Position numbers and translations under genes: made by a program | Assembly: GCF_009671205.1 (NCBI RefSeq) | Contig: NZ_CP045309.1 | Coordinates: 1,798,001 to 1,862,000, forward strand | DNA: 64,000 nucleotides | Direction of reading: 5' to 3' | DNA from: Micromonospora terminaliae | GTDB lineage: Bacteria > Actinomycetota > Actinomycetes > Mycobacteriales > Micromonosporaceae | Part shown: positions 21,782 to 51,137 of the stretch, in pieces | Layout: each line of letters starts with the position of its first letter | Numbering within the stretch: the first letter of the stretch is position 1 | The notes under the pieces: model-generated | The model's database searches: none | The model's input: the letters and a program-made list of their open reading frames with translations, nothing else | Told to the model about the DNA's origin: nothing

Positions 21782-22142
21782 CGTAGTTGCCATCGTCGGC
21801 ATGGCGGCGAACTGTGGACCAGGACCGGTTCCTCGTTAAGAGCAAAGGTGTCCGAACAGGGGACCGGCGCACGTGAGATCACCGATCCCGGCATCAGAGT
21901 GGATCTTTTCCACGATGACAGCGCCACGGCGATGACGGTGGCGGGCTGGAGGAAACTCGCTATTCAAGATCTGCAACCGTGGTCGGGCCGGTCATCGTGG
22001 CCGCACCGCTCTCGGGGGGCGCGGAGTGGTATTCGTGGGTCACCGTACCCCCGGCGCAGGGCGTCCGGGGACAGACGTCCGGACGGCCTCCCTCATCCGT
22101 GCGTCTCCTTGTCCGCGTGCCTTCCGCGTGACGGCTCGCTGC

Positions 22143-22958
22143 TCACCGCAGCGCCTCTGCAACGATGCGCGCGACGGCGGGATCGGCGAGCAGCGCCGCG
22201 CGGGACACCGGGAGGCGGTGGTCCTCGACGCCGAACCCGGCGGGCAGGTCGTGGTGTTCGGACACGATGACCGTCTCCGTGCCGCCCCGCGCCGCGCCCG
22301 CGCGTCCGGCGGTGACCAGATAGCTGAGGAAGGCGCCGAACCGCTCCGAGAATCCCTGGCCCACCTCCTCGCCGGCGTCCAACATGTCGCACACGGTGTG
22401 GACGACGTCGTCGTACACGGCCTGCAGGCCGCGCATCGCCTCGCCGAGCGCCGCGGGAGGCTGGGTGCCGATGTCCGTACCGAGGGGACGGGTGAGGCCG
22501 TCCGCGGTAGCGAGGGCAGCCCGGATCTGGTCCTCCGACAGCAGTCCCGCGTAACCCTCCACCGACGTGGCGAAGAGGTCTTGGATCAGGGCGCCGTCGA
22601 CGTGGCTCGGGTCGAGCAGCACGACCGGGGGCTCGGGCAGGCCGCTCCTGCGCAGCAGGTCGGCCGCTTGTCGGGCCAACGCGCTGCCGGCGCAGTAGCC
22701 GAGCACCCCGCAGACCTCCAGCCCGGCGCTGGCGACGTCGTCGAGCCAGCGGCTGAGGCAGCGGTGGGGATCCGTGCCGGTGACCGGGTCGCCGGTCTGC
22801 GGAGCGAACACCGGCTCCCACACGACCGGCTCCGGTGCGAGGTTGGCGACCAGGTCGCTGAAGCCGGCCTCGCGGCGTCCGGGGCCGAAGTCCACGGCGA
22901 GCAGGACGCGATCGCTGGGGCCTGGGGCGAGAACCCGCCACGTGGTGTGCATCGTCAT
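22143..22958 (-). CDS. Stand-alone thioesterase-like alpha/beta hydrolase with Cys nucleophile
   Basis: This is a 271-residue alpha/beta hydrolase and the last gene of the core operon, where a product-releasing enzyme is expected. The nucleophile elbow reads GYCAG (87-91), placing Cys89 where thioesterases normally have Ser. VVLLDP follows about 25 residues on, and a late SEHHDLP block can supply the His. The TE-like half of 4565-5620 shares these three landmarks, so the two are paralogues. Known assembly-line TEs with Cys include those that form beta-lactones and monobactams (obafluorin, sulfazecin). Cys may therefore indicate unusual ring closure rather than hydrolysis; that step is inference. 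The start overlaps the upstream stop by 4 nt (ATGA). Confidence 0.75.
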   Translation of the reverse strand: MTMHTTWRVLAPGPSDRVLLAVDFGPGRREAGFSDLVANLAPEPVVWEPVFAPQTGDPVTGTDPHRCLSRWLDDVASAGLEVCGVLGYCAGSALARQAADLLRRSGLPEPPVVLLDPSHVDGALIQDLFATSVEGYAGLLSEDQIRAALATADGLTRPLGTDIGTQPPAALGEAMRGLQAVYDDVVHTVCDMLDAGEEVGQGFSERFGAFLSYLVTAGRAGAARGGTETVIVSEHHDLPAGFGVEDHRLPVSRAALLADPAVARIVAEALR

Positions 22959-25708
22959 CTCGATTCGTTCGTCCGGGCAGCCGGTGCGCCGAGCCCGGCG
23001 GGCACCACATAGGCCACCAGCTGGCGATTACCGGACCCGTCGTCGCGGGTCACGACCACGGCCTCCTTCACCCCGGGGTGCCGGCGCAGCAGGCTGGCGA
23101 TCTCGTCCACCTCGATCCGGTGACCCCGGATCTTGACCTGCGAGTCGGCCCGCCCGAGGAACTCGAAGTCACCGCCGGGGCGCAGCCGGACCAGGTCGCC
23201 GGTCCGGTAGAGGCGCTCCGCGCCGGTCTCCGGCGGCCCGGTGACGAAGCGCTGGTCCGTCAGGCCCGGCCGGCCCCGGTAGCCCAGTGCCAGTCCGCTC
23301 CCGCCCAGGTACAGCTCGCCCACCACACCGGCCGGCAGGACATCCCCGTCGGGGTTGAGCACCCAGGCCGAGGTGTTCTGGATCGGGCGGCCGATCGGCA
23401 CGGGCTCGTCGTCAGGTCCGGGGCGTAGCGGGGCGATCAGCGACCAAACGGTCGTCTCCGTGGGGCCGTACATGTTCCACACCTCGGAGGCGGCCTCGCT
23501 TAGCCGGTTGGCCAGCGGACGGGTGAGCGCCTCGCCGCCGCAGAGCGCCAGACGCAGGCGCAGGTGCGCCGGGGCCAGGGTCAGGATGCCGTCCCAGGTC
23601 ACCGGCGTCGCCTGCAGCACGGTGACCCGCTCCTCGGTGATCAGGTCGAGCAGGCGCTGGGGGTCGCGCGCGTCCTCCGTCGAGGCGAGCGCGATCCGTG
23701 CGCCCACGGTCAGGGGGAGGAACAGCTCCAGCACGGAGATGTCGAAGGACGGGCTGGTCAGGGCGAGCATCACGTCGTCCCGGGTCAGCCCAGGCCGCAG
23801 CGCCATCGAGGTCAGGAAGTTCACCACCGCGCGATGCGGAACGTTCACCCCCTTCGGCTGGCCGGTGGACCCGGAGGTGTAGATGACGTACGCGGAGTCC
23901 TCGCCGCTGCCGCCCGCGGTGGCGGTGAGCGGCGCGCCGTCCGCGGCGTCGCCGTCGGCCTCGTCCAGGACGACGACCGGCGTGCCGAGGGCGGTGAAGG
24001 TGTCCGGCGCGGTGGCCGGGCCGGTGACGATCACCTGCGCCCTCGCGTCGCGCAGGATGAACTCGACCCGGCGGCGGGGGTACGTCGGATCCACGGGCAG
24101 GTACGCCGCGCCCAGCTGCCAGCTCGCCAGCATGGCGAGCAGGGCCTCGACGGACCGGTCGAGGTGGACGGCGACCACGTCACCGCGGGTCACCCCTTGC
24201 CGCGCCAGCCGATCGGCGAGCCTGCCGGCGTGCCTCCCCAGCTCCGCGTAGGTGAACCGGCGCCCCCCGCTGTGTACCGCGGGCGCGTCGGGATGCCGGT
24301 CGATCGAGGCGAGCACCAGGTCCAGGGCGCTGCGTACGTCGGGCAGGGGCGTGCGAGGCGGCGCGCAGAGGCGGAGGAGTTCCCGACGCTGCTCCTCGGT
24401 CACCAGGCTGAGCCGGTCCACCGGGGTGTCCGGCGCGGCCATCCCGTTGCGCAGCAGGTTGACCGTGTGCTCCAGCAGAAGGGTGGTGGTGGCCTCTTCG
24501 TAGAGGTCCGCGCTGGCTTCCAGGTTCAGCTGCATCCGCTGGTCGGGCCCGGCGACCACGATCATTTCGAGGTCGGTCTGGATGGCCGCGGAGGCCAGTG
24601 GCAGCCGCCGGCAGTCCAGTTCGGGTACGTCGGCGAACGCCTGGGCCGATCGGGAGGCGTTGTTGAACAGGACCTGGTAGACCGGGTTGTACGCCAGGCT
24701 CCGCTCGCGGCCGAGTTCGGCCACCACGGCGGTGAAGGGTGGGCGCCGGTGCATCATGGCCGTCAGGCTCTCGTCGCGTACCCGGGTGACCAGCTCGGCG
24801 AAGCTCGTTCCGGCGGGCAACTGCACCCGTAGCGTCACCACGTCCATGAAGAGGCCGATCAGGCCGCGCAGTTCCGCGCGGTCCCGTCCGGACACCGAGG
24901 TGCCCACCAGGATGTCCCGTTCCCCGCTGTGCCGGCTCAGGGTGGCCACCCATGCGGCCGACAGGACCATCGCCGGCGACACCCGGTGCAGGCGGGCGAA
25001 CTCCTGCAGCGCGGTGACATCGTGCTCGGTGAGTGACGCCTGCGCTCCGTACGACGACAGCGTCGGTCGGCTCGGGCGCGGGGCGGCCCCCGGCATGGTG
25101 AAGACGGCAGGGGCGTCGTGCAGGCGCGCCCGCCAGTAGGCGAGATCCTCGGCCCAGGAGCCGTCCGTCGCGGCGGTCCGTTGCTGCTCGACGTGCCGCT
25201 GATAGGTGGTTGGCAGGTCCGCCGCCGGCCACCGGCCGCCGTCGCGCAGGGTGGCATAGGCGTCGGAGAGTTCGTCGAGGAGCACGCCCAGGCTGGCTCC
25301 GTCCGCGACGATGTGGTGCAGGACGACCATGAGGACGTGGTGGTCGTCGGCGATCGGGAAGAGGGTCATCCGGAACAGCGGTAGCTCGGAGAGATCGAAC
25401 TTCGCCGCGATCTCCACCTCCGCCCGGCTCCTCCAGTCATCGAGCGACGCCACCGGCACCACGCGCAGCGCGGGCGGTGCGGTGTCGTGCACCGTCACGA
25501 AGGGACGGCCGTCGCGTTCGTGGAAGGTGGTCCGCAGTGACGCGTGCCGTTCCACCACGGCCTCGGCGGCGCGGCCGAGCACCGCCGGATCGAGCGGCCC
25601 CCGGATCTCGTAGGCCATGGTGAGGTGGTGCATCAGCGTGTCCGGCAGCAGCTGCTCCAGAAGCCAGATCCGCTCCTGCCCGAACGACGGCTCGATGGTC
25701 GACGTCAC
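22955..25708 (-). CDS. NRPS condensation-adenylation protein with truncated A domain (Gly-like pocket)
   Basis: This is a 917-residue C-A protein. The C domain spans about 5-430 with HHIVADG at 131-137. The A domain spans about 460-917, with A3 YTSGSTGQPKG (610-620), A5 NMYGPTETT and A8 SQVKIRGHRIE (856-866). My reading of the pocket is D-I-L-Q-L-G-M-V-W-K, very close to the glycine signature D-I-L-Q-L-G-L-I-W-K. The protein stops about 50 residues after A8, inside the C-terminal subdomain, and lacks the A10 lysine motif. The missing piece, with a PCP, is the product of the gene just upstream (25705-26130). GTG start; GTGA overlap with that gene. It therefore presumably works as a two-chain A domain. 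Confidence 0.92.
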   Translation of the reverse strand: MTSTIEPSFGQERIWLLEQLLPDTLMHHLTMAYEIRGPLDPAVLGRAAEAVVERHASLRTTFHERDGRPFVTVHDTAPPALRVVPVASLDDWRSRAEVEIAAKFDLSELPLFRMTLFPIADDHHVLMVVLHHIVADGASLGVLLDELSDAYATLRDGGRWPAADLPTTYQRHVEQQRTAATDGSWAEDLAYWRARLHDAPAVFTMPGAAPRPSRPTLSSYGAQASLTEHDVTALQEFARLHRVSPAMVLSAAWVATLSRHSGERDILVGTSVSGRDRAELRGLIGLFMDVVTLRVQLPAGTSFAELVTRVRDESLTAMMHRRPPFTAVVAELGRERSLAYNPVYQVLFNNASRSAQAFADVPELDCRRLPLASAAIQTDLEMIVVAGPDQRMQLNLEASADLYEEATTTLLLEHTVNLLRNGMAAPDTPVDRLSLVTEEQRRELLRLCAPPRTPLPDVRSALDLVLASIDRHPDAPAVHSGGRRFTYAELGRHAGRLADRLARQGVTRGDVVAVHLDRSVEALLAMLASWQLGAAYLPVDPTYPRRRVEFILRDARAQVIVTGPATAPDTFTALGTPVVVLDEADGDAADGAPLTATAGGSGEDSAYVIYTSGSTGQPKGVNVPHRAVVNFLTSMALRPGLTRDDVMLALTSPSFDISVLELFLPLTVGARIALASTEDARDPQRLLDLITEERVTVLQATPVTWDGILTLAPAHLRLRLALCGGEALTRPLANRLSEAASEVWNMYGPTETTVWSLIAPLRPGPDDEPVPIGRPIQNTSAWVLNPDGDVLPAGVVGELYLGGSGLALGYRGRPGLTDQRFVTGPPETGAERLYRTGDLVRLRPGGDFEFLGRADSQVKIRGHRIEVDEIASLLRRHPGVKEAVVVTRDDGSGNRQLVAYVVPAGLGAPAARTNESR

Positions 25709-26130
25709 GAGTCCCGCCTTCCCGCGCCGGCCGGTCCCACAGCCGCCGCCTCCCGCACCCGCGCGGCGAGCGCCGCCACGGTGGGCTGCTCGAACAGGTA
25801 ACTGGCCGGTACACCGACCCCGTACGTCTTGCGTACGTGCGCGATCACCCGCATCACCTGCAGTGAGTTGCCGCCGATCCGGAAGAAGTCGTTGTGGACG
25901 CCCACCTGGTCCCGGTTGAGCAACTGCCCCCAGAGCCCGACCAGATCCCGCTCCAGGTCGTCGCGGGGCGAGCCGTCGGCCCGCGACTCGACCGTGACCG
26001 CCGGCAGGGCGTTGAGATCCACCTTGTGGTTGGGCGTCTGCGGCAGGGCGTCCAGCGTGACGATCGCCGACGGCACCATGTAATCGGGCAACAGCTGACG
26101 GAGGTAGTTGATCAGCTCCTCTTCCAGCAC
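25705..26130 (-). CDS. A-domain C-terminal tail (A10) fused to a PCP
   Basis: This is a 141-residue protein. Residues 5-42 are the end of an adenylation domain: LPDYMVPSAIV, then TPNHKVDLNAL with the A10 lysine Lys36. Residues about 55-125 are a carrier with FFRIGGNSLQ and phosphopantetheine Ser89. The start of this chain corresponds to the point where the C-A protein encoded next in the operon stops. The two genes thus look like one C-A-PCP module cut within the A C-subdomain and re-ordered, with the tail translated first. The GTG start directly abuts the LanB-like gene's stop. The PCP may also be the platform on which the LanB-like enzyme works, but this is inference. Confidence 0.9.
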   Translation of the reverse strand: MLEEELINYLRQLLPDYMVPSAIVTLDALPQTPNHKVDLNALPAVTVESRADGSPRDDLERDLVGLWGQLLNRDQVGVHNDFFRIGGNSLQVMRVIAHVRKTYGVGVPASYLFEQPTVAALAARVREAAAVGPAGAGRRDS

Positions 26131-28539
26131 CTATTCATTCCTTCCGGTGCGAGGATCGGTGGATTCCGGGCCGGCCGCGCCGGGTCTGGCGCGGGTGCCG
26201 TCGATGAGCGGGTCCACCGCGGTGGCACCGGCGGCCGGGTCGACCGCCACCACCCGCACCTCCGCCGTGTAGCCGGCGCCGTCGCCATCGGTCAACCAGG
26301 TCTGGCTGATGTCCGGCAGCATCTCGGAGATGGTGAAGGTGGTCTGCCGCGCCTCGGCCGTGCGCCGTACCGCCTTGGCGAACAGGTTCACCAGCACCAG
26401 GCTGGTGAAGTCGACGAAGACCGGCTTGTCCTCGACCGGCACCTTGTAGAACCCTCGCTCCGGCAGGCCGAGTTCGGCGCGCCAGGCGCGGGCCGCCAGG
26501 AACCGGTCCGGCTCCTTCTTGATGGACGCCCAGCGCAGGTCGGTGGCGTCCAGCGTCCAGGACTCGCGGGCGAGCACGAGCCGGTCGATCGTGACCCTGG
26601 GCCGGTGCGCGGCCGGTGGCAGCGGTTTGAACCCGTTCACCGTGGCGGCCGAGAGCAGCTCGCCCACCACCTCGAGCAGGTCGAAGCGCCGGGCACCGTC
26701 ACGGGTCCGGACCTCGAGCCGGCCGTCGCTGCGTTCCACCACGAGGCGCGCCGCCGGCAGCGGCTCTCCCGGGGTGCCGCCGGCGTCCGGATGCAGCGAC
26801 CAGTACGTGTACCGGGGCGACAGCAACGCCGACGGTGGGTAGGTGCGGGAGTTCACCGCCTCCCAGTGCTTCGGTGAGGAGAGGTACACCCGCCGGTCGC
26901 GGTGGTCCGCCTCGTCCGCCCGGAACAGCCAGGACGGGTCCTCGTGTTGCTCGACGAAGAGGCGGCTCTCGACGGTGTTCGACGCCAGGTGCAGTTCGCC
27001 GAGGACGAGCAGGAATTCGCCGCGGGCCACCGCCTCGGGCCCGTCGGCGGCGATCATCAGGTCCGGAGCGTGGTGGACGGCGGCCGCCCAGGCCGGCTCC
27101 GGCGCGGCGAAGAGCTCGGCGACCCGCTCCGTGATGTCCTCGGCACGCACCTGGTGGCAGGGCGTGTCGGGGGACGGCCGCAGGATCTCCTGCCACCGCC
27201 GCTGGAGCTCCTCGGCGACCGTCGCCACCGGTCGTGGCAGCTCACGGAGGGAGAAGAACAGCTGGGGGGTGGCGGCCGCGACGACCGCCGCCAGCGACGG
27301 TGGGGCGTCGCCCGACCGCGCGCGCACCAGCTCGTACGCCTCGTCGAACACCTTGCGGTACTCGCGCGTCACCTCGGCGACGAACCAGCGTGCGCTCTGC
27401 AGCAACAGCGCCAGCGGCGGAGCCAGGGCTTCCAGGACCGCCGCACCGAAGTGGACGTCCACGTCGCGGACGGTGTCCTCGTAGAGGATGGTGCGTCCGG
27501 CGTAGGTCTGGCCCGGCCGCCGGGCCGCCTGCACTCCGGCGATCTCCTCGAACACCCTGGCGGCCTGGTCCAGCGCGGCCACGAGCTTCGCCTCGTCACC
27601 GGCCGCTGCGGCGACCGCGTCCCGGGCGTGCAGGAGACGGCCCACCCGGGTCAGGACCTGCTCGCGGACCACCGGGTCGCCGACCCTTTCGAGCCGCTCA
27701 ATCAGCTCCCGCTCGGGGTGGGCGGAGACCGCCACCTCCAGGCCGAGGTGCAGGAGTCCCCGGTCGCGCAGTGCCACGAGCTGGTCGAGGACGTCCTGCT
27801 CGGTGCAGAGCTCGGGGTGGCCCGACCAGAGGATCTCCTCGGCGATCTCCCGCGCGGTCCTGGTGCCGTCGCAGAGGCCGACGAGTTCGGCCTCCGCCTC
27901 GGTCAGCAGTACCGGCGGCCGGCTGCTGCGATGTAGCGTCCGGCCGACGAGGTCGAACGAGTTGATCCGGCGGGGCGGTAGCCACGGGATCAGCTTCGGG
28001 TCCTGCTCCAACGCCCGGGCCACCGCGTCCACCGCCCAGACCTCGAGGTAGGTGGTGCGCCGCGCGAGGAGGTCGGGGCCGGGCGTGACCCGTGTCGCCG
28101 CGTCGTCGCTGGACCAGTTCGCCCAGCCCACCGGACCGAAGAAGCCGATGGTGTCGTTCTTGACGCAGTAGCGCTGCCAGTAGCTGGCGATCGCCGACTC
28201 GTGGTTGCGGCCCCGGACGTTGCGCGGCTCCCCGGCGGCGGCTTTGTCGACACAGTCGGCGATGAGTGCCCGGTTCTGCCAGGCCACCGCCTCGCGGAAC
28301 GTCGGGTCGCGGGCGATCCGCCGGATCTGCTCCGACAGCTGGGTCGTCGCGCGTTCGTAGGCGGCCTGGTAGTCGTTGCGACTGCCCTCGCCCGTCGCGC
28401 ACCGGTCGGCCGCCGCCGCCAGCTCGACGTTGCTGAGGCGGCCGACGTCGGCCGCGGGGAAGCCGGCGCTTCGGAGCACCGACTGCTTCCAGATCGACCA
28501 GTCGCTGCCGCCGAGGCGGAGCAGGTGCTCGGCCGTCAT
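26131..28539 (-). CDS. LanB-like (lantibiotic dehydratase family) enzyme
   Basis: This 802-residue protein matches the lantibiotic dehydratase N-terminal (glutamylation) domain. It has YCVKNDTIGFFGPVGWANW near residue 130, then TYLEVWAVDAVARAL, PRRINSF and LVALRDRGLLHLGLEV. The size is that of split LanBs and PEARLs, without the C-terminal elimination (SpaB_C-like) domain of roughly 300 residues in full-length LanB. LanB enzymes use glutamyl-tRNA to activate Ser/Thr for dehydration, and PEARLs add amino acids from tRNA. No precursor peptide gene is evident. It sits inside an NRPS/PKS operon between the PKS and a PCP gene. I prefer the ATG at 28539 (GGGGG about 8 nt upstream) to an in-frame GTG at 28548. 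Probable role: tRNA-dependent modification of a carrier-bound residue. Confidence 0.88.
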   Translation of the reverse strand: MTAEHLLRLGGSDWSIWKQSVLRSAGFPAADVGRLSNVELAAAADRCATGEGSRNDYQAAYERATTQLSEQIRRIARDPTFREAVAWQNRALIADCVDKAAAGEPRNVRGRNHESAIASYWQRYCVKNDTIGFFGPVGWANWSSDDAATRVTPGPDLLARRTTYLEVWAVDAVARALEQDPKLIPWLPPRRINSFDLVGRTLHRSSRPPVLLTEAEAELVGLCDGTRTAREIAEEILWSGHPELCTEQDVLDQLVALRDRGLLHLGLEVAVSAHPERELIERLERVGDPVVREQVLTRVGRLLHARDAVAAAAGDEAKLVAALDQAARVFEEIAGVQAARRPGQTYAGRTILYEDTVRDVDVHFGAAVLEALAPPLALLLQSARWFVAEVTREYRKVFDEAYELVRARSGDAPPSLAAVVAAATPQLFFSLRELPRPVATVAEELQRRWQEILRPSPDTPCHQVRAEDITERVAELFAAPEPAWAAAVHHAPDLMIAADGPEAVARGEFLLVLGELHLASNTVESRLFVEQHEDPSWLFRADEADHRDRRVYLSSPKHWEAVNSRTYPPSALLSPRYTYWSLHPDAGGTPGEPLPAARLVVERSDGRLEVRTRDGARRFDLLEVVGELLSAATVNGFKPLPPAAHRPRVTIDRLVLARESWTLDATDLRWASIKKEPDRFLAARAWRAELGLPERGFYKVPVEDKPVFVDFTSLVLVNLFAKAVRRTAEARQTTFTISEMLPDISQTWLTDGDGAGYTAEVRVVAVDPAAGATAVDPLIDGTRARPGAAGPESTDPRTGRNE

Positions 28540-28567: not shown

Positions 28568-31500
28568 TCATCGTCCCGCTCCCAACCGGCGCAGCTCCTC
28601 GGTGAAGCTGCCGAGCGTGGGGTAGTCGAAGATGGCGCCGACGCTCAGGTCCACGCCGAAGCGGTCCCGGACCTGTGACATCAGCTCCACAGCGATCAGC
28701 GAGTCGCCGCCCAGCGCGAAGAAGTCCTGGTCGTCGCTGAGGTCGGCGACGCCGGTCGCCGCCGTCCACAGTTCGCGGACCTGGTCGGCGAACTCGCTCG
28801 GCGACGGTGCCGGCTCCACGACGGCCGGTGCCGGTGTCGGCTCGGCGGCGGGCGTTCGTTCCGGCATCGGCGCTGGAACGGCAGGTGCCGGCGTCGACGG
28901 CCCGCGCCGGCCGGTCGCCGGTACAGCGGTCCTGGGAGCCGGTACCGGCCGGGTGGCCCGTGCCTCCTCCCGGGCCGCCGTCGTCAGCGGGTCCGCAGGA
29001 GACGGCTCGGGACGACCGCCGCGGAACCGGCGGACCGCCACCTGTCGGGGCGTGCGCCCCGTCAACAGGTCCATCAGTAGATCCACACCGACCTCGGGCG
29101 GTATGCCCACGCTCTCGGCGGCCTCGTCGACCCGCCGCGGTGACACCAGGGCGGCCGGGTCGGTGGCCCGGCGCATGGTGAAGCCCCGCACCTCGACCAG
29201 CACGGTGCCGTCCTCGTCGAGGACGTCGAGGTCCGCCATGATGCTGTTGGTCGGGGCATCTGGCCGGCGGCGGATGTGACTGAGGATGCGACCGGGCAGC
29301 CGGCCGTGCACCACCACCGAGCGGTACATGAAGGGGACATGGATGTCGTCCTTGTCCAGGTCACGAACCGATGTGGTGGCGGCGTCCATGAGCGTCGGGT
29401 GCACCGCGTGCCGGCGTGCCTCGTGCTGGTAGTCCTCGGGCAGCGCCAGGACGAGCAGTTGGCTGTCGCCGGCCGGGTCGGCCTGGGCCTGGTGGTAGGT
29501 GCGCCAGCGCGGGCCCAGCGTGAACGCCTGCCGGTCGCTGCCGAACGGTGGGAGGGGCCGGTGCTCGCTCAACCTGGCGCGAAGTTCTGCCAGGTCGACG
29601 CGGCGCCGTGCCGTGGTGTCCGGCTCGGGTCGCCACGCGGCGACCCGCCCCCGTACGTGGGTCTGCACGTCGGTGGGGGAGGAGGTGGTCAGTGGCGCCG
29701 AGGAGACCGCGAAGGCCCAGCTCTCGCCCTCGGGGTTGAACGCCACCTCGACCCGGCGCGGCGAGGTCAGCTCCAGCATCCGCTGGAACACCACGTCGTT
29801 CAGCGCGACCGGCTCCTCCGCCCCGTCGAGGATCTCGGCCCGGAAGGCCTCGACGACCAGGTCCAGGTGTCGGGTGCCCGGCACCACCGGAACGCTGCCC
29901 AGCCGATGCTCATCGGTCACCGGGTCGTTCTCCGCGCTCAGCATCGTCTGCCACCGGCGGGCCGGAGCCCGGCCCGCGGAGAGGAGCATCCCGCCCGCGG
30001 CCATCCCCACGCCCTGCCATGCCGGCCAGCTGATGCTCAACAGGCGGTCCGCGACGAGGGGCGTGTCGCGCACGAAGGTGTCCAGATAGGCGTTGGCGGC
30101 GGCGTAGTCGGCGCCCCCCACCTGGCCTTCCAGGGCGGCGCGGCTGGAGAAGCAGACGAAGAAGTCTAGCCGCGGGCGGCCTGCGAACACCCTCTCGAGG
30201 CTCAGCGCACCGGCCATCTTGGGGGCGAAAGTCGCCTCACTGTCCGCCGCGCCGGTGAACTGGACCGTGCCGGAGCCGATCCGGCCGGCCAGGTGCAGGA
30301 CGCCGTTGACCGGACCCCGCCGGTCGGTCACCTCGTCGACCAGGCGACCCAGTGCCGTGGCGTCCGTGACGTCACAAGCATGGACCTCCACCGTCGCGCC
30401 GAGCGCGCCGAGTTCGTCGAGCACGTCGTCCGGCACCGACCCGCTCCGTCCCACCAGTGCGAGAACCGGCTGCTGGCCGGTCCTCGCGAGCCCGCGGGCC
30501 ACCTCGATGCCGAGTCCTCCACCGCCGCCGGTGATCAGGTAGACGCCGTTGCGGCGGACCGCCGGCGACGCCCCGGGAACCACATCGAGTCCTCGCTCGG
30601 CGGGCACCCACCTGAGGTCGCCGCGTAGTGCGACGACCGGGGAGCCGTCCTGGTCGGCCAGCTCCGCGGCGAGGTCGTCGTCGGTCACCCGCGCGCCGAG
30701 GTCGATCAGCCGTACGGTGAGCCGCTGGTCCTCCTCGGCGATCGTCCGGGCCAACGGTGGCAGCAGGGCGTGCTCCGGGCGTACGACCTCAGCGCCGCTG
30801 ATGTCGACGGCTTGGCGGGTCAGCACGACGATCCGAGCCCCGTCGGCCAGCCCGGACACCCGGGACACCAGCCGGGCCACCTCGTGCAGCTCCCGGAAGG
30901 GGCGTTGGAGTGCGGCCAGGTCGGCGCGGTCGGCGGCCGCACCCGAGAGACCCCACGCGTGCACCAGCATGAGCGGCTGCCGACCGGCCGCCGCGACGTC
31001 GCGCAGCAGGTCCGCCAGCTCACCTCGGCGCCGTACGGGCAGGTGGAAGGACCGCTCGGCGGAGCCTGAGCCCGGATCGGCCGGGACCGGCACCATCCTG
31101 ATCCCGGCCCGTTGCAGCGCGACGGTGAGGTCGCGTGCGCGGTCCTCTTCGGCCAGCAACAGCGCGTGCGGCGCCGTGTCGTGGCTGGCGTCGGCTCGCC
31201 GGGGCACATGCACCCAGCAGGGCACCGAGAATGGGGACTCGTCCACGGGGGTGTCGGCGGTCAACTGCTCCTCCGTCGGGTCGGCTGTCGTGGGTGCTGC
31301 TTCGCTGTGCGCCCTCGTGGATTCCGGTGGCGCCTCGGCCGCGGGGGACGTCGGCCCCGCCGCGGCGGGCGCGGCGGGCGGGTCCGCCCAGAACCGCTCC
31401 CGCTGGTAGGGGTAGACCGGCAGCGGCGTACGGACGACCGGTTGCCCGTGCCCGACCGCGTGCCAGTCCACGTCGTGTCCGTCGGTCCAGACGGTGGCGA

Positions 31501-34006
31501 GGGAGTGCAGCAGCGCGATCTGGTCCTCCCCGGGCCTAGGGCGGGACGGCAGCGACGCCACGGCCGCGTGGCCCCCGGCGGCCAGGGCGTGGTGCGACCG
31601 GCTCAGCGACGTGAGGGTCTGGCCCGGCCCGACCTCGACGAGCACCTGCGGTCCCTGGGCGAGCAGATGTTCCAGCGCGGGACCGAAGAGCACCGGTTCG
31701 ACGAGCTGGTCGGCCCAGAATGTCGGGTCCGTCGCCTGGTGTGCGGTCATCGTCGTGCCGGTGGCGGCGGAGACGATGGGGATCCGTGGCGCGCGCAGCG
31801 CGACGGCGCCGAAGGCGGAGCGGAACTCGTCGGCCGCCTTCCGCATGGCCTCGGTGTGGAAGGCGTGCGAGGTGCGGATCGGGCGACTGCGCAGGCCCCG
31901 TTCCCGCAGCGTGTCGGCGAGGCCGGCCAGCGCGTCGTGCGGACCGGCCAGCACACTCTGTCGGGGTCCGTTCACCGCCGCCAACTCGACTTCCGCCGAC
32001 AGTAGGTCGGTCAGCTCGTCGGCGCCGGCGGCGACCGCGAGCATGCCGCCGGCCGGCATCCGGTTCATCGCCCGGGCGCGGACCGCGACCAGCGTGACGG
32101 CGTCGGAGAGGCTGACGACCTCGGCGACGGCGGCCGCGGTGAGCTCGCCGATGCTGTGGCCCAGGAGGCGGTGCGGTACGACGCCCCAGGAGCGCCACAG
32201 CTGCGCCAGGGCGTACTCCACCGCGAACAGCAGCGGCTGCGCGACCGTGGTGCTCGCCAACTGCGCGTCGTCGCCCGTACGCCAGGCCTCGGCGACGTCC
32301 GTTCCGGCCGCCGAGAACAGGTGCAGCGTCTCGTCGAGCGCCTCGGCGAAGCGGGGCTCCTGCTGATACAGGTCCTGCGCCATGCCCGCGTACTGAGCGC
32401 CCTGGCCGGGGAAGAGGAAGGCCAGCTCACGCCGTTTTCCGGCGCCGCGGACCACGGCGTTCCCGTCGGCGGCGGTGAGGCCGGTGACCGCCTCCGCAGC
32501 GCTTTCGGCCACCAGGGCGGCTCGATGCGGGTAGGCGCGGCGGCCGTGTTGCAGGGTCGACACGGTCGCCGTGAACGTCCGCTCACCGTGGTCGGCCAGG
32601 TGGGCCCGGATCCGCTCCTGGTAGGTCTCCCGGGCCGCGGCCGTCGCCGCCGACCAGACCAGCAGGCGAGGCCGGGTGGCGGCCGGCTCGGCCACCCGTA
32701 CGGGCGCTTCCTGCAGTACGGCGTGGGCGTTGGTGCCGCCGATGCCGAGGGAGCTGACGGCGGCCAGCCGGGGCTGATCAGCGCGGCGGGGCCAGGGGAC
32801 GGCCTCGCTCGGCAGGTAGAAGGGCGAGCCGTCCAGGTCGAGCTTCGGGTTGACGGCGCTCACGTTGATGGTGGGCGCGATCCGCTCCCGTTCCAGACTG
32901 AGCACGGCACGGATGAACGATGTGACGCCCGCTGCGTGGCCCAGGTGACCGACGTTGGCCTTGACGGAGCTGAGGGCCACGGTGTCGTCAGCGGGGTGCC
33001 CCAGCCGGCGGTACGCGGCCAGCAGGGCGGCCACCTCGATCGGGTCGCCCAGCATGGTGCCGGTGGCGTGCGCCTCGACCAGCCCCACGTGGTTCACGTC
33101 CGCCCCGGCCATCATCATGGCCTCCAGCACCACGTTGGTCTGGCCGGTCACGCCGGGGGCGGTGAAGCCGACCTTGCGGGCGCCGTCGTTGTTGACGGCG
33201 GTGGCTCGTACGACGGCCCGGACCGCGTCACCGTCCGCGAGCGCCTGCGCGAGCTTCTTCAGCACCACGACGCCCACGCCGCTGCCGAAGATCGTGCCGC
33301 TGGCCGCCGCGTCGAACGGGCGGCAGTGCCCGTCCCGGCTGAACGGTCCGTCCATCGCCCAGCGGTGTCCGTGGGTCAGGGGCAGTTCGACCTCGACACC
33401 TCCGGCAAGAGCGAGTTCACACTCCCCGTTGCGGATGGCGGCCACCGCCTGGTGGATGGCGACCAGTGAGCTGGAGCAGGCCGTCTGCACACTCATGGCG
33501 GGCCCGGTGAAGTCCAGCTTGTACGACACCATGGTGGCCAGCGAGCCGAGATTGTTCCAGGTGCCGACCGCGAGGCCGGTGATGCCCGTGGCCGCCCCCG
33601 GCTCCGGGCGCAGGTACAGGTCGACGTACCGGTTGGTGCCGGCGGCGCCGAAGACCCCCACGTCGGTGAGCGAGCCCGGGTCGTAGCCGGCGTTCTCCAC
33701 CGCGGCGTGCGCCGTCTCCAGGAACAGTCGCAACTGCGGGTCGCTGGTGCGTGCCTCCCGAGCGGTCATTCCGAACAGCGCCGCGTCGAACATGTCGAGC
33801 TGCGCCGCTTCGGCGACCGCCCGTACGTACGCGGGGTCGTCGAGGCTGGAGCGGGGAACTCCGGCGGCCAGCAGTTCGTCCTCCGACAGGAAGCGGATGG
33901 ACTCTCGGCCCGCGCTGAGGTTCTGCCAGAGTTGCTCCACGTCGTCGGCGCCCGGGAACCGCCCGGCCATGCCGATCACCGCGATGGGCTCGAGTTCATC
34001 GGCCAT
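28568..34006 (-). CDS. Modular PKS: KS-AT-KR-DH-ACP
   Basis: This is a 1,812-residue single-module PKS. KS spans 5-430 (Cys177 in TACSSSL, His in EAHATGT and NVGHLGHAAG). AT spans about 528-830 (Ser618 in GHSIGE; SHAFH at 713-717, the malonyl signature). KR spans about 1150-1330 (NADPH loop ITGGGGGLG, Ser1288, Tyr1301). DH spans about 1360-1620 (His1367, Asp1541 in HPTLMDA). ACP is at about 1735-1808 (Ser1769 in LGGDSL). It adds a malonate unit and should leave a trans-2-enoyl group. The KR-before-DH order is uncommon; typical modules have DH before KR, while enediyne synthases run KR-DH. No enoylreductase is present. Its start overlaps the upstream NRPS by 11 nt. Downstream the LanB-like gene begins about 28 nt later. 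Confidence 0.95.
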   Translation of the reverse strand: MADELEPIAVIGMAGRFPGADDVEQLWQNLSAGRESIRFLSEDELLAAGVPRSSLDDPAYVRAVAEAAQLDMFDAALFGMTAREARTSDPQLRLFLETAHAAVENAGYDPGSLTDVGVFGAAGTNRYVDLYLRPEPGAATGITGLAVGTWNNLGSLATMVSYKLDFTGPAMSVQTACSSSLVAIHQAVAAIRNGECELALAGGVEVELPLTHGHRWAMDGPFSRDGHCRPFDAAASGTIFGSGVGVVVLKKLAQALADGDAVRAVVRATAVNNDGARKVGFTAPGVTGQTNVVLEAMMMAGADVNHVGLVEAHATGTMLGDPIEVAALLAAYRRLGHPADDTVALSSVKANVGHLGHAAGVTSFIRAVLSLERERIAPTINVSAVNPKLDLDGSPFYLPSEAVPWPRRADQPRLAAVSSLGIGGTNAHAVLQEAPVRVAEPAATRPRLLVWSAATAAARETYQERIRAHLADHGERTFTATVSTLQHGRRAYPHRAALVAESAAEAVTGLTAADGNAVVRGAGKRRELAFLFPGQGAQYAGMAQDLYQQEPRFAEALDETLHLFSAAGTDVAEAWRTGDDAQLASTTVAQPLLFAVEYALAQLWRSWGVVPHRLLGHSIGELTAAAVAEVVSLSDAVTLVAVRARAMNRMPAGGMLAVAAGADELTDLLSAEVELAAVNGPRQSVLAGPHDALAGLADTLRERGLRSRPIRTSHAFHTEAMRKAADEFRSAFGAVALRAPRIPIVSAATGTTMTAHQATDPTFWADQLVEPVLFGPALEHLLAQGPQVLVEVGPGQTLTSLSRSHHALAAGGHAAVASLPSRPRPGEDQIALLHSLATVWTDGHDVDWHAVGHGQPVVRTPLPVYPYQRERFWADPPAAPAAAGPTSPAAEAPPESTRAHSEAAPTTADPTEEQLTADTPVDESPFSVPCWVHVPRRADASHDTAPHALLLAEEDRARDLTVALQRAGIRMVPVPADPGSGSAERSFHLPVRRRGELADLLRDVAAAGRQPLMLVHAWGLSGAAADRADLAALQRPFRELHEVARLVSRVSGLADGARIVVLTRQAVDISGAEVVRPEHALLPPLARTIAEEDQRLTVRLIDLGARVTDDDLAAELADQDGSPVVALRGDLRWVPAERGLDVVPGASPAVRRNGVYLITGGGGGLGIEVARGLARTGQQPVLALVGRSGSVPDDVLDELGALGATVEVHACDVTDATALGRLVDEVTDRRGPVNGVLHLAGRIGSGTVQFTGAADSEATFAPKMAGALSLERVFAGRPRLDFFVCFSSRAALEGQVGGADYAAANAYLDTFVRDTPLVADRLLSISWPAWQGVGMAAGGMLLSAGRAPARRWQTMLSAENDPVTDEHRLGSVPVVPGTRHLDLVVEAFRAEILDGAEEPVALNDVVFQRMLELTSPRRVEVAFNPEGESWAFAVSSAPLTTSSPTDVQTHVRGRVAAWRPEPDTTARRRVDLAELRARLSEHRPLPPFGSDRQAFTLGPRWRTYHQAQADPAGDSQLLVLALPEDYQHEARRHAVHPTLMDAATTSVRDLDKDDIHVPFMYRSVVVHGRLPGRILSHIRRRPDAPTNSIMADLDVLDEDGTVLVEVRGFTMRRATDPAALVSPRRVDEAAESVGIPPEVGVDLLMDLLTGRTPRQVAVRRFRGGRPEPSPADPLTTAAREEARATRPVPAPRTAVPATGRRGPSTPAPAVPAPMPERTPAAEPTPAPAVVEPAPSPSEFADQVRELWTAATGVADLSDDQDFFALGGDSLIAVELMSQVRDRFGVDLSVGAIFDYPTLGSFTEELRRLGAGR

Positions 34007-37000
34007 GGCCCGACTGTCCCTTCCGCTCCTGGTTCAACTGGGTTCGGACGGCCCGGCGTCGGTCGCTGGCGCCGCCGGGCCCGGCCGCGGGCCGCAGGGG
34101 CGCCACGGGCTCGGCAGTCGCGTCCGCTCCGGCGAGCAGCGCGCTGATCTGGCGAACGGTCGGATGTGCGAAGAACGCCGTCGCCGGAGGCGGATCGGGC
34201 ATGGCCTCGGCCAGCAGCGCGTGCACCTGCAGCAGCCTCATCGAGGTGAGACCGGCTTCGAAGAAGTGCTCATCGAGACCGATCCGCCGGCCGATGACCC
34301 CGGCGATGAGGTCGACCAGCCAGCGCTGGGTGTCGGTGGCCGGGGCGTGCCGCAGGCTCTCCCGCGCTGCTTGATCGCCGGTTTCCGCGGGCTGGAGTTC
34401 GGTGGGGTGGAACACCACCTTGTGATTGGCGCTGGTGGCGAGGCGGTCCCGGACGTCGATGCGGGGCGGCACGGCGTGGCCCGGCAGCAGCGACAGCAGG
34501 TGCGAACGCAGTGCCTGCGGGTCGATCGTGGCATCCGGCCGGGGAACGACCTGCAGGGCCAGGACGGGACCGGCCGCGGTGGCGACGGTCCCGGCGACGG
34601 CCTGTGCCACCGGACCCGCGCGCAGCGCGGCGGCCTCCACCTCGGCGAGGTCCAGGCGATGACCGTCGACGTCGATCTGGCGGTCCCGCCGGCCGACGAA
34701 CTGGACCCCGCCGTCCAGGTCGATGCGGCCGACGTCGCCGGTCCGGAAGGCCGGCCGACCGCCCGGGCCGGCGACGAAGCGGTCCGCCGGTCCGCTGTCG
34801 TCCAGGTATCCCTCGGCGAGCAGGGGACCCGCCACCACGATCTCGCCCGGCTCGCCTGTTCCGGCGTCCCGGTCGCCGTCCGCCAGGACCAGCAGCTCGT
34901 TGCCCGCCACGCCCCGGCCGTGCGGCAGCACCTCGTCGTCGGCCCACTGAGACAGCGCGTCCTCGGCGGACTCGCCGTGACCGAGCACCTGGTGACAGGC
35001 TGCCAGCTGCGGGGTCTCGGTGGTGCCGTAGCCGTTGACCACGGCGGCGGGGGTCAGCTGCCGCAGTCGCCGAACCAGCCCGGCCGTGAGTGGGGCACCC
35101 CCGCTGAGCACCAGCCGCACCGTGTCCAGCCGGACCCGCGCCGAGTGGTGTGCCGCGACGAGCAGCTCCAGCAGTCCCGGGGTGGCGTGCAGCACGGTGA
35201 TCCGGTGGTCGGCGAGGAAGCGCAGCAGTGCGACCGGGTCGGCGAGCACCGCCTCCGGAGGTACCGCGACGCTCGCCCCCACGTGCAGCGCGACGAGCAG
35301 GTCGCGCAGCACCGGGTCGTGACCGATCCCGCCGACGAGCGCGAACCGGTCGGCGGCGGTCGGCTGGAAGGCCGTCGCGTACCAGGCGAATGCCGCGCTC
35401 AGTGGCTGCGGACCCACCACAACACCGGCCGGGCGCCCGCCGCTGCCCGAGGTGAACAGGACATGACTCGCGCCGGGCAGCGTCCGCGGCTGTGGAACGC
35501 CGCTGTGCAGCGTCGGCGCCGCGACCGCTTCCGGCGGCACGTCGATCACGGCGGCCGGCCGGAGCTGTCGCTGCTGTTCGGCCAGGCGGGCCTCGGGCAG
35601 GGCCGCGTCGACCAGGGCGATCACCGCCCCCGAGCGCCAGCCGGCGAGCAGAGCCATCGCCAGGCCGGCACTTCGGCGGCCCCGGATCTCCACGACCTGC
35701 CCGGGCGTGACGCCGGCGGCGCTCAGCCGGGCACGGAGGTCCTCGACGGCGGCGTCGAGCGCGCGGTAGCTCAGTGGGCCCTCGGCCGTGTGCAGGGCGG
35801 TGTCGTCACTTCCGCCGTTCAGGGCCCGCGCCGGGGACCAGGCGTCGGCTCCCGCGGCGGCCGGTGCCGGGTCGGCCAACGGCGAGCGCGCCCGCCGCGC
35901 CGCGGTGACCAGGGAGATCTCCCGCGGCGACACGGAGGCGTCGGTCAGTACCTGGTCGAGGACGAGCAGGCATTGTTCGAGCAGTTCCCGGGCCATACCT
36001 GGCCGGACCCGGTCCGCGGCGCGGACCAGCTCGAGGCGGAACCCGTCGGTGTCGCGGTGCAGGTAGAGGTTGAGGTCGAACAGCGCACCCGTCCCCGGCG
36101 CCGGCTGCGCCCGCACCTCGACATCCGGGAGGCGGGGCAGCGCAGCGCTCTGCGTGAGGTCGTTGAACCAGACCTGGAACAACGGGTTGCCGAGCGGCCG
36201 TGCGGGCAGGTCCAGTTCGGCGAGCAGGGCGTCGAAGGTCGGGGTGGCATGGGTGATGGCGCCGACGTGGCGGTCGCGGACATGTCGCAGGACGTCGAGC
36301 AGGTCGCCGCGGCGGCCGGTCTCCAGCACCAGCGGGACGGTCTCGATCAGGAAGCCGACCAGCTGGTGTTCGGCGGCCGTGCGGCGGCGGCTGGCCGGCA
36401 TGCCGACCACCACCTGCTCGGTCCCGCTCCAGCGCGTCAGGACGACGGCCAGGCAACCGAGCAGGAGGACTGCCGGGGTGAGACCGTGGGCACGCAGGAA
36501 CCGATCCACCTGGCTCGTCCGCTCGGCCCCCAGCGCCACCTCCTGGTGGGCGCCGCGCAACGACGGGGCCAGCGAGTGAGCCACCGGCAGCTTCGGGCTC
36601 TCCCGGACCTCGGCGAGCAGGTCCTTCCAGTAGCGCAGGTCGGCCTGCCAGGTGGTGCCGCCCACGAGCTGGGTTTCGGCCACGGCGTACTCGGCGAAGC
36701 TGGGGGCGGGAGCGAAGTCGGGCGCCGCGCCGGTCGACCGGGCGGCGTACGCGGTGGCGAGGTCGGCCACGACGATGTCCGCTGCGGCCTGGTCGGAGAT
36801 GATGTGATGCATCGACAGCGCCAGGCAGGCGTCGGTGCCGTCGGCCGCGCGCAGCAATCCCGCGCGCAGCATGGGCGCCTGATCCATCGGGATCGTGACG
36901 GCCCCCACCCGGCGTACGAACTCCTCGGCCGCCGAGTCCCTCAGCGCGCCGTCGGCGTCCTCGACCGTCAGCTCGGGCCGGGCGTCGTCGTCGTACCGCA

Positions 37001-37478
37001 GCTCCGGGGTGTCGGTGACCCACGCGCGCAGCGCGTCGTGGCGCAGTGCCACGTCGCGGAGAGCGGCGCGCAGCGCGGCGACCTGCACGCGGCCGCGCAG
37101 CCGCAGCGCCGTCACCACGTTGTAGGCGGCCGACTCGGGGTGCAGCCGGCTCACCACCCACAGTCGGCGCTGGCTGGGGGCCAGCGGCGAACGGTCGCGG
37201 GCGCGGTGCTGCTGCGCGGGGGCCGGCGCCGGCGCGGACACCGCCCGTGCGCGAACGTCGGCGAGGGAGGCGTTGTCGCGCATCAACAGGGCCAGCGGAA
37301 CCTCCAGGCCCAGTCGTTCCCGCGCCGCCGCCACGAACCGCAGGGCGGCGAGGGACTGCCCGCCCAGCGTGAGGAAACCCTCGGCCTCGTCCTCCTCGCT
37401 CTCCGGTGGCCCGGCCGCCTCCCACCAGAGGTCGTCGAGTGACACGCCGTCAGGGGATCCATGCGGGCGGTCCGCCAT
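33996..37478 (-). CDS. NRPS: PCP-C-A-PCP with Lys2-like A domain
   Basis: This is a 1,160-residue NRPS. The N-terminal PCP has LGGQSL (Ser42). The C domain spans about 98-530 and has HHIISDQ (224-230), with the usual final Gly replaced by Gln. The A domain spans about 545-1020. The C-terminal carrier has FFEAGLTSM (Ser1079). The A domain has the GHDPVLRDLL block typical of alpha-aminoadipate reductase-like A domains. My pocket reading is D-P-R-H-L-G-G-Q-L-K, which I cannot assign. Its A3 loop is SGSGGRPAG, lacking the usual Lys, though RTGD (A7) and NHK (A10) are kept. The first PCP has no A domain of its own and needs loading in trans. The ATG 37478 has GGAG 8 nt upstream. First gene of the core operon. 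Confidence 0.92.
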   Translation of the reverse strand: MADRPHGSPDGVSLDDLWWEAAGPPESEEDEAEGFLTLGGQSLAALRFVAAARERLGLEVPLALLMRDNASLADVRARAVSAPAPAPAQQHRARDRSPLAPSQRRLWVVSRLHPESAAYNVVTALRLRGRVQVAALRAALRDVALRHDALRAWVTDTPELRYDDDARPELTVEDADGALRDSAAEEFVRRVGAVTIPMDQAPMLRAGLLRAADGTDACLALSMHHIISDQAAADIVVADLATAYAARSTGAAPDFAPAPSFAEYAVAETQLVGGTTWQADLRYWKDLLAEVRESPKLPVAHSLAPSLRGAHQEVALGAERTSQVDRFLRAHGLTPAVLLLGCLAVVLTRWSGTEQVVVGMPASRRRTAAEHQLVGFLIETVPLVLETGRRGDLLDVLRHVRDRHVGAITHATPTFDALLAELDLPARPLGNPLFQVWFNDLTQSAALPRLPDVEVRAQPAPGTGALFDLNLYLHRDTDGFRLELVRAADRVRPGMARELLEQCLLVLDQVLTDASVSPREISLVTAARRARSPLADPAPAAAGADAWSPARALNGGSDDTALHTAEGPLSYRALDAAVEDLRARLSAAGVTPGQVVEIRGRRSAGLAMALLAGWRSGAVIALVDAALPEARLAEQQRQLRPAAVIDVPPEAVAAPTLHSGVPQPRTLPGASHVLFTSGSGGRPAGVVVGPQPLSAAFAWYATAFQPTAADRFALVGGIGHDPVLRDLLVALHVGASVAVPPEAVLADPVALLRFLADHRITVLHATPGLLELLVAAHHSARVRLDTVRLVLSGGAPLTAGLVRRLRQLTPAAVVNGYGTTETPQLAACHQVLGHGESAEDALSQWADDEVLPHGRGVAGNELLVLADGDRDAGTGEPGEIVVAGPLLAEGYLDDSGPADRFVAGPGGRPAFRTGDVGRIDLDGGVQFVGRRDRQIDVDGHRLDLAEVEAAALRAGPVAQAVAGTVATAAGPVLALQVVPRPDATIDPQALRSHLLSLLPGHAVPPRIDVRDRLATSANHKVVFHPTELQPAETGDQAARESLRHAPATDTQRWLVDLIAGVIGRRIGLDEHFFEAGLTSMRLLQVHALLAEAMPDPPPATAFFAHPTVRQISALLAGADATAEPVAPLRPAAGPGGASDRRRAVRTQLNQERKGQSGHGR

Positions 37479-37883
37479 CGGTAGTACTCCGTCCGTCGAA
37501 GCGAGTGCGAGTACGCGCGGTGTCGTCGCTGGTGTGAGGTTCGGGCCAGCGGCGCCTGCCCCCTCGCAGCGTCCGGTCCGTCGTACCTGACGGCCGCCTT
37601 TGAAATGGTGCTGACTGCGGGAAAGCGCCGCTTCTCGCCCATTGCCTCGGGGCCGGCGCCACCGCATCACCCTCCTGAGCTGCACGGAAACGTCTTCCGA
37701 TCTGCGGACAGCAACCGTGAGCAAGCGCGCCCGAATTCGTCGCGCCACGATGGACTGGTGAAACCGCGAGGGAATGGGTGCCGAATGGTTCCGGCGTGAG
37801 CTTCCACCCCTGAAGGCAAATGAAAGAGCCGATCGGCGAGCACGCATGCAGATGACTGCTACGGGCTAGGAGTTACCACGAGC
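37479..37883. other. Divergent promoter region between the two core operons
   Basis: This 405-bp spacer separates the NRPS start (minus) from the luciferase-like monooxygenase start (plus). I see no credible gene in it. It contains the 11-bp-spaced GAATGG repeat described separately. It must hold the promoters for the largest operons of the region, but no clear -35/-10 pair stands out, as expected for activator-dependent promoters. Confidence 0.6.
37772..37788 (+). promoter_or_regulatory. Candidate SARP-type direct repeat (GAATGG, 11-bp period)
   Basis: GAATGG occurs at 37772-37777 and again at 37783-37788, one helical turn apart. This is the spacing of known SARP boxes. It is about 96 nt before the monooxygenase start and inside the divergent core promoter region, with a SARP gene in the cluster. 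The repeat is seen; the link to the SARP is inference. Confidence 0.4.
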
Positions 37884-38915
37884 ATGAAGTTCAGCATCTT
37901 CTACTTCGCCGATGGGGCCTCCGCACGGGACGGGGGTCTCTACCGTCTCCTCATCGACGGCGCGCGGTTCGCCGACGCGCATGGGTTCGAAGCGGTCTGG
38001 ACGCCGGAGCGGCATTTCCATTCTTTCGGCGGGCCTTACGCGAACCCGTCACTGACCAGCGCCGCCGTCGCCGCCGTCACGACGCGTGTGAAGGTCCGCG
38101 CCGGTAGCGTCGTGGCGCCACTGCACCATCCGCTCCGGATCGCCGAGGAGTGGTCGATGGTCGACAACCTGTCGGGTGGGCGGGCCGGCGTCGCCTTCGC
38201 TCCCGGATGGAACCCGGTCGACTTCGCCTTCAGCCCGCAGTCGTACGCCGACCGCGCGCGGGTGGTGGCCGAGACCGTCGACCAGGTCCGCTCGTTCTGG
38301 GCCGGCGAGCCCGCCGAGGTGGTCGACGGCAAGGGGCAGGCCCGACAGGTGCAGCTGTACCCGCGGCCGGTGCAGAAGGAACTACCGATCTGGATCACGA
38401 GCGGTGGTAGCCCTCAGACCTTCGAGACCGCCGGGCGACTCGGCGCGGGTGTCCTGACCCACCTGTTCGATCAGGACATCGACGATCTGGCGCAGAAGAT
38501 CGCGGTCTACCGACGGGCGGCGGAGGCGTCGTCGGCCCGTCCGAACGTGGTCGTCATGCTGCACACCCTGCTCGGGACCTCCCGTGAGGAGGTGCGCTCG
38601 TTGGTGCAGGCTCCGATGAAGGAATACCTACGGAGCTCGTTGGACCTCATGTCGCGCATGTCGGCGGAAGACGAGGACCTCGATCCCGCCCTGGTCGAGG
38701 AGCTGATGAACGAGTTGCTCGACCAGGCTTTCGAGCGTTACTTCGCCCACGGCGCTCTGTTCGGCACCGTGGAGGACGGACAGAAGCGGATCGAGGAGTT
38801 ACGCGCGGTCGGCGTCGACGAGGTCGCGTGCCTCATCGACTTCGGTCTGCCGGACTCGACGGTCATGGAAGGGCTGCGCCATCTCCGGGACCTGAAACAG
38901 TCATGCGACGACTGA
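37884..38915 (+). CDS. Luciferase-like FMN monooxygenase (natural-product type)
   Basis: This 343-residue TIM-barrel protein belongs to the luciferase-like monooxygenase group often found in PKS/NRPS systems (MupA/Atu-type). It shows FADAHGFEAVWTPERHFHSF near residue 35, then GSVVAPLHHPLRIAEEWSMV and LSGGRAGVAFAPGWNPVDF. It uses reduced FMN and oxygen to oxidise a carrier-bound or free intermediate, and a separate flavin reductase is needed. It is clearly paralogous to the monooxygenase domain inside the megasynthase at 40257 (about residues 1833-2178 there). AGGAG lies 11 nt before the ATG. It leads the rightward operon with the MFS and megasynthase genes. Confidence 0.92.
   Translation: MKFSIFYFADGASARDGGLYRLLIDGARFADAHGFEAVWTPERHFHSFGGPYANPSLTSAAVAAVTTRVKVRAGSVVAPLHHPLRIAEEWSMVDNLSGGRAGVAFAPGWNPVDFAFSPQSYADRARVVAETVDQVRSFWAGEPAEVVDGKGQARQVQLYPRPVQKELPIWITSGGSPQTFETAGRLGAGVLTHLFDQDIDDLAQKIAVYRRAAEASSARPNVVVMLHTLLGTSREEVRSLVQAPMKEYLRSSLDLMSRMSAEDEDLDPALVEELMNELLDQAFERYFAHGALFGTVEDGQKRIEELRAVGVDEVACLIDFGLPDSTVMEGLRHLRDLKQSCDD

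Positions 38916-40256: not shown

Positions 40257-40260
<4 letters not shown>
39004..40260 (+). CDS. MFS exporter
   Basis: This is a 418-residue major facilitator with about 12 hydrophobic segments, of the EntS-like MFS_3 group. Features include an A-like motif GVLVGRYARTG after segment 2, GFGTSGVLVTLLGYHAAFLVD mid-protein, and an R-rich cytosolic tail. The start appears to be TTG at 39004, behind a GGGCGGGA stretch; the next in-frame ATG would remove the first membrane segment. The stop overlaps the megasynthase start (GTGA), so exporter and synthase are translationally coupled. This is strong evidence that it exports the product and gives self-resistance. Confidence 0.93.

Positions 40261-51137
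<10,877 letters not shown>

Follow-up and report, generated by a model that had tools for sequence, protein, structure and literature searches.

Class I and split LanB dehydratases such as NisB, MibB, MadB and TbtB share a glutamylation-domain fold with the protein described here. The PEARLs TglB, BhaB and AmmB share with it a predicted ATP-grasp-like site with an Asp, a Glu-x-Arg and a tRNA-binding Arg, as far as the available text of PMC11117183 and PMC11962472 describes them; no solved PEARL structure is known according to the available part of PMC12945691. Another described enzyme is SnaE of the threopeptin NRPS-PKS cluster of Stackebrandtia nassauensis, which in heterologous expression was required for the Thr-bearing products (Yu & van der Donk, ACS Cent Sci 2024; PMC11212132, available text). 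In that work the use of ATP and tRNA by SnaE was inferred, and the carboxylate that the enzyme extends comes from a ureido-forming C domain with the motif EHHxxHDG. The same text counts about 2000 NRPS/PKS clusters with an annotated lantibiotic dehydratase, in which lanthipeptide precursors were not identified. In a literature search that covered subscription journals little, we recognised no report of an NRPS-linked enzyme of such kind other than this paper and its preprint. One related pathway thus already provides a published case of a tRNA-linked assembly-line ligase, and the idea of a tRNA-fed assembly-line enzyme is known in outline. The preliminary description of this locus had proposed such a joining of the tRNA pool to an assembly line; the published precedent had been missed. 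It had named albopeptide as a case of a LanB-like enzyme acting on an NRPS product, which is mistaken, since the dehydrations there are done by the C domains AlbB-C2 and AlbB-C3 (PMC10880069, available text).

The window analysed here is a stretch of 64,000 nucleotides from Micromonospora terminaliae. The LanB-like gene is an open reading frame of 802 codons plus a stop that runs on the minus strand from 28539 to 26131, and reading the plus strand gave stops. Because its third-position GC was 0.92 (against 0.74 and 0.52) and proteins of 81-91% identity were found in other genomes, a chance reading frame was ruled out. Pfam PF04738 (Lant_dehydr_N) matched the protein with an E value of 8.4e-30 (104 bits against a 28-bit cut-off), and no second Pfam family was found in it at E 0.001, hence no PF14028/SpaB_C. 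The protein is thus of the lantibiotic dehydratase family with the glutamylation part only, as had been described. In the structure comparison the closest solved fold among Foldseek matches was the glutamylation domain of TbtB; the structure alignment covered only Foldseek's own matches, so that a PEARL missing there carries no meaning. The PDB search found a LanB once LanBs had been added to the alignment, and the alignment without LanBs gave none.

The gene starts 28 nt past the stop of the PKS gene and its end directly abuts the gene for an A10 piece and a PCP, in agreement with its first placement inside a tight NRPS/PKS operon between a PKS gene and a PCP-bearing gene. The operon order on the minus strand is NRPS, PKS, LanB-like gene, A10+PCP gene, C-A gene and a putative thioesterase-like gene (Table 1). 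The first T domain of the NRPS lacks a dedicated A domain. For the putative hydrolase at the end of the operon, the Pfam Thioesterase match had an E value of 0.22 and the AF2 model a pLDDT of 58. The KR of the PKS, read by eye, presumably retains the Ser and Tyr/Asn of the motif. A P450 and luciferase-like monooxygenases were found near the operon.

Table 1. Features of the operon and its neighbours in the window
Feature	Position	Strand	Remarks
Putative alpha/beta-hydrolase, thioesterase-like, GYCAG elbow	22143..22952	-	269 aa; weak assignment
NRPS C-A without A10	22955..25708	-	start overlaps stop of preceding gene
C-terminal adenylation-domain piece (A10 N-H-K-V-D with catalytic Lys) + PCP	25705..26130	-	141 aa
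Predicted LanB-like, SnaE/PEARL-type aminoacyl-tRNA-dependent amide ligase	26131..28539	-	802 aa
PKS module KS-AT-KR-DH(after KR)-ACP	28568..34006	-	1812 aa
NRPS T-C-A-T	33996..37478	-	1160 aa from ATG at 37478
Divergent intergenic region, presumed promoters of both arms	37479..37883	.	
Luciferase-like monooxygenase	37884..38915	+	
MFS transporter	39097..40260	+	Pfam run on 39004-40260
Hybrid assembly line CAL-T-KS-AT-T-LLM-C-A-T-C	40308..51137	+	3609 aa; C domain at end

The operon adjoins a large supercluster that occupies 1-19841 of the window and 1738001-1798000 of the same contig. Its genes include an enediyne-type PKS of 1916 aa, a pair of small thioesterases that are 62% alike, DUF1702 genes and one for an epoxide hydrolase. 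We take this supercluster to be enediyne-like and its thioesterases to have the look of enediyne E10, judging by gene content; no family model gave an enediyne assignment. At 6010-7968 on the plus strand, SbnA and SbnB homologues above the NCBIfam cut-offs, stand for 2,3-diaminopropionate supply. An AMP-binding gene (2980-4560) and a PCP-bearing gene (4565-5620) lie nearby.

One adenylation domain of the operon is cut between A8 and A10 over two genes of the minus strand (25705-26130 and 22955-25708), and the A10+PCP gene stands upstream of the C-A gene, which is a permuted order. The A10+PCP gene was kept in all five copies (the window, M. inaquosa, M. orduensis and M. eburnea twice), and a C-A gene without A10 could be read in four of the five, all except M. 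eburnea copy 2. The specificity code of the C-A gene, read by eye, is presumably Gly-like, and a Gly-type A domain split after A8 is what the window has in common with Crz1/Crz2 of corallorazine. There, according to the available part of PMC11342130, the Gly A domain is split after A8 with the remainder on another ORF in the ordinary order, and its activity was shown in vitro; the predicted split domain of the window has the A10+PCP gene upstream and no methyltransferase in its cut.

The residues of the predicted ATP and tRNA site were assigned from sequence as R23, Y120, R123, R349, D493, E515, E760 and R762. R658 and F697 were assigned less surely because they should match residues kept in TbtB too, yet in the LanB rows R658 was absent and F697 was found in 1 of 13. 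Residues of TglB and BhaB were mapped indirectly, through spacing, motif and SnaE; by this mapping D493 and R762 are present at the positions of TglB D542 and R803, and all 13 LanBs with elimination domains have neither. Asp and Arg at these two positions are reported as PEARL-only in the available text of PMC11117183 and PMC11962472. Read from the sequence strings, all 13 LanBs had V, T or I two positions past the Glu, and the R that the alignment column at R762 shows in the same 13 is an artefact of a long gap. E760 and R123 are common to the 802-aa protein and the LanBs, and D493, E515, E760 and R762 were invariant in all 47 family and distant rows.

SnaE and the window protein were 40% identical over residues 1-453 and 46% over residues 460-776, with the site residues in common. 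The phylogeny against LanBs, suggested in the preliminary description, grouped the window protein with SnaE: in a quick tree of 79 rows, the 66 family rows including both proteins stood apart from the 13 LanBs with an SH-aLRT of 100, which is the only kind of support given, with a long-branch warning and with TglB, BhaB and AmmB left out. The window protein fell in an eight-row clade with no ureido-linked row, as far as the gene contexts of five of its rows show, and nine ureido-linked rows were scattered over several other clades. The sna genes, which were found by content, were A-T-C-A-T with EHHLVHDG, KS-AT-T, MbtH, a thioesterase, an acyl-CoA dehydrogenase, the LanB-like gene and two ABC-type genes. 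Like the window, the SnaE cluster combines NRPS, PKS and ligase; it has no precursor, and in the window none was recognised at 22.3-37.4 kb. The two differ in the ureido-forming C domain, whose motif the C domains of the window lack, and the window has KR and DH in its PKS and the A10-PCP and C-A genes downstream.

The elimination domain PF14028 was absent from the M. terminaliae genome (two contigs, completeness 100), and the same search matched 93 of 152 genomes. A home-made HMM also found no elimination domain in the window or in any of 77 related loci, over the locus DNA available, 45 of these loci spanning at least 20 kb. Of the 38 segments that went into the model, 13 came from 13 of 14 control loci; it matched all 14 controls, L177 being the only independent one. 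The lack of an elimination domain alongside the LanB-like protein, as first described, was thereby confirmed genome-wide for PF14028 and with the HMM in the 77 loci. The precursor screen took in 55 small ORFs outside called genes between 17 and 53 kb. In 22.3-37.4 kb none of these had a match in relatives, so that the earlier statement of no evident ribosomal precursor peptide held among such ORFs in this region; in the gap 19842-22142 the DNA was conserved and contained ORFs with partial matches to relatives, so that a precursor gene may lie there. TglB, BhaB and AmmB act on a ribosomal carrier peptide (available text of PMC11117183 and PMC11962472), and none was recognised at the window operon. 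Unlike NisB, MibB, MadB and TbtB, the window protein has neither an elimination domain nor a recognised precursor and differs from them at the PEARL-only positions.

The dehydratase reading was rejected on the missing PF14028 in the genome, an elimination HMM that stayed blank over the available DNA of 77 loci, and the PEARL-only residues. The dehydration of a carrier-bound Ser/Thr that had been proposed is likewise unsupported, as PF14028 is absent and the active site has the PEARL-only Asp and Arg. From its sequence, the LanB-like protein is very probably a PEARL-like ligase and not a dehydratase. The family, the PEARL-type residues, the kinship with SnaE and the lack of an elimination domain and of the ureido motif are what was seen in the sequence. 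By analogy, the protein is probably a SnaE-type, PEARL-like amide ligase serving the NRPS-PKS line of its own operon; this estimate covers the ligase class and the general mechanism, and it overlaps with those for a different acceptor and for a thioester acceptor, which belong to the same class. As in PEARLs, ATP would be bound in the ATP-grasp-like site, the ligase would phosphorylate a carboxylate that is free on the assembly-line product, an aminoacyl-tRNA would attack the acyl phosphate through its amino group, and the tRNA would be hydrolysed off to give a product one amino acid longer. Here we infer the use of ATP and aminoacyl-tRNA, the order of the steps, the acceptor and the amino acid added. 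The alternative first put forward, extension of a carrier-bound chain from a tRNA, is retained for the predicted amino acid from tRNA, while "carrier-bound" is doubtful because the kept ATP site implies a free carboxylate.

The ureido motif EHHxxHDG was found in none of the four C domains of the window. Their motifs were [24 protein letters not shown] and VHHLHGDG; the C motif of the T-C-A-T NRPS was MHHIISDQ, which differs from the ureido motif, and those of the hybrid line, named by eye, were FHHLVADG and [11 protein letters not shown]. The C domain near 37208 (-) has a motif that ends in DQ and not DG (HHxxxDQ), as do its relatives in M. inaquosa, M. orduensis, M. eburnea copy 1 and Salinispora and no other readable C motif, in a survey in which 35 C-domain hits gave no readable motif. 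A DNA pattern search of the whole genome gave one exact match to EHHxxHDG, 1.4 Mb away, and no C domain was found there. A threopeptin-type chain-reversal model was therefore rejected, and a SnaE-type chain-reversed carboxylate should not exist here because the motif is absent. Among the 77 related loci, EHHxxHDG occurred in 8 (over the locus DNA available), and NRPS or PKS domains in 63, including 41 of the 45 that span at least 20 kb.

Since no ureido-forming C domain reverses the chain in the window, the likeliest acceptor would be an ordinary C-terminal carboxylate freed by hydrolysis, giving a forward, tRNA-fed last residue. A C-terminal acid would be the only main-chain acid because the CAL-started line presumably puts an acyl group on the N terminus, and it would be stable because the PKS keeps KR (Ser, Tyr) and DH by eye; from these two points we infer forward extension. 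We put forward the C-terminal acid of the released chain tentatively, at somewhat under even probability, and the acceptor may include side-chain acids.

M. inaquosa and M. orduensis show the full operon order. M. eburnea carries two copies, of which the first has the full order as well and the second retains PKS, ligase, A10+PCP and C-A. The core of Salinispora cortesiana (L121:7906-19500) consists of one NRPS (A-T-C-A-T, C motif LHHLVADQ), one PKS (KS-AT-KR-ACP) and the ligase, which shows that these three can stand as a core. We take the first A domain of this NRPS to be Ser-like from its specificity code. The KR of the Salinispora PKS (L121:12911-17155) gave a weak Pfam match (E 4.6e-10) and by eye lacks the Ser, Tyr and Asn, whereas the window KR, likewise by eye, keeps its catalytic residues. 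As this KR looks inactive, a chain-end acid is doubtful in Salinispora and a stable one does not explain the acceptor there; a beta-keto acid, once released, might lose its carboxylate as CO2, and the chain would then end without an acid. It also speaks against the chain-end reading that the thioesterase-like gene of the window is weakly identified and that the genes compared around the Salinispora cluster included no recognised thioesterase. In a second NRPS-PKS cluster of the M. terminaliae genome (L123:10671-16090 = 1340671-1346090), a thioesterase-ligase fusion (L123:10671-13790) is followed by a second LanB-like gene; relatives were found in 94 of 151 same-genus genomes, many as adjacent pairs. 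Such a fusion, a type mentioned too in the available text of PMC11212132, fits hydrolysis and then ligation. An apparent PKS-LanB fusion in locus L222 was discarded, as the ACP is broken, the ligase has its own start and a frame error in the MAG is probable, and no link was found for a rakicidin/APD idea.

A ligase of the same class might extend a side-chain acid, or one that tailoring enzymes (P450, luciferase-like monooxygenases) introduce, in place of the chain end. The kept PEARL site without the ureido motif, the nearby P450 and luciferase-like monooxygenases and the inactive-looking Salinispora KR, with which a chain-end acid may not last, all agree with this, but in Salinispora the only likely tailoring gene recognised beside the three core genes encodes an oxygenase, a PhyH protein, and we consider this acceptor unlikely, if the most serious competitor. 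ATP-free off-loading of an ACP- or PCP-bound thioester by aminoacyl-tRNA is improbable and clearly weaker: D493, E515, E760 and R762 of the predicted ATP site are invariant in 47 of 47 rows and a thioester acceptor would need none of them. It would nevertheless suit the lack of a thioesterase among the Salinispora genes compared, would catch the Salinispora beta-keto acyl chain ahead of decarboxylation, and agrees with the PKS-to-ligase order kept in the window, M. inaquosa, M. orduensis, both M. eburnea copies and Salinispora.

That the LanB-like protein belongs to the neighbouring enediyne-like pathway and not to the NRPS-PKS operon is very unlikely, and its support comes from Phytohabitans suffuscus. 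In this genome an open, 88% identical ligase gene with intact site residues stands without its adjoining partners, about 5 kb upstream of enediyne-PKS-like genes, which also counts against the preferred reading of a ligase serving its own operon. At L130:11564-14185, the upstream region of the operon, including the operon-side part of 37479..37883, and about 40 NRPS codons are joined directly to the LanB-like gene, so the NRPS and PKS genes between were deleted; the scar leaves a 49-codon stub ORF overlapping the ligase start. The downstream operon genes are not beside the ligase gene, and a search of the whole P. suffuscus genome with the NRPS protein gave a best match of 31% identity. On the P. 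suffuscus LanB branch there were 19 nonsynonymous and 10 synonymous private changes, whereas three relatives pooled had 22 and 61; the corresponding omega values were about 0.7-0.9 and 0.14-0.16. Relaxation after partner loss, as in a natural knock-out, was set aside because this rise was not specific to the gene: SbnA and w7987, two of the four further genes of the cluster used as a control, rose too and SbnB and DUF1702 did not significantly, so that no firm conclusion is drawn on the changes in this ligase. Against membership in the enediyne-like pathway, M. eburnea (two copies) and Salinispora have ligase, PKS and NRPS, and no enediyne-like thioesterase or DUF1702 match was found in the stretches read; the raised ratio in P. 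suffuscus, unspecific as it is, points the same way.

Glutamylation by the LanB-like protein of a carrier-bound Ser/Thr or a PKS-KR beta-hydroxyl from Glu-tRNA, with another enzyme eliminating the glutamate, is the least probable of all, as the TbtB glutamylation fold, the shared E760 and R123 and the presumably Ser-like first A domain of Salinispora are set against the missing PF14028 in the genome, the home-made HMM that stayed blank over the available DNA of 77 loci, the PEARL-only residues, a 40-46% relative, SnaE, that is tied to amide formation, and a PKS that already has its own DH domain.

For the family, the preferred reading would mean a tRNA-fed forward terminal module that adds the last residue onto a C-terminal acid (or off-loads a thioester) without chain reversal, in many clusters without a ureido-forming C domain; we regard this as possible, a shade less so than the C-terminal acceptor itself. 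SnaE is the one characterised case that we found for about 2000 clusters, and ureido formation has to come first for its substrate to exist (PMC11212132, available text). If other clusters use a different acid or the chain end, tRNA-fed residues would be missing from many product predictions, and the Salinispora cluster with its three core genes offers a small, testable model.
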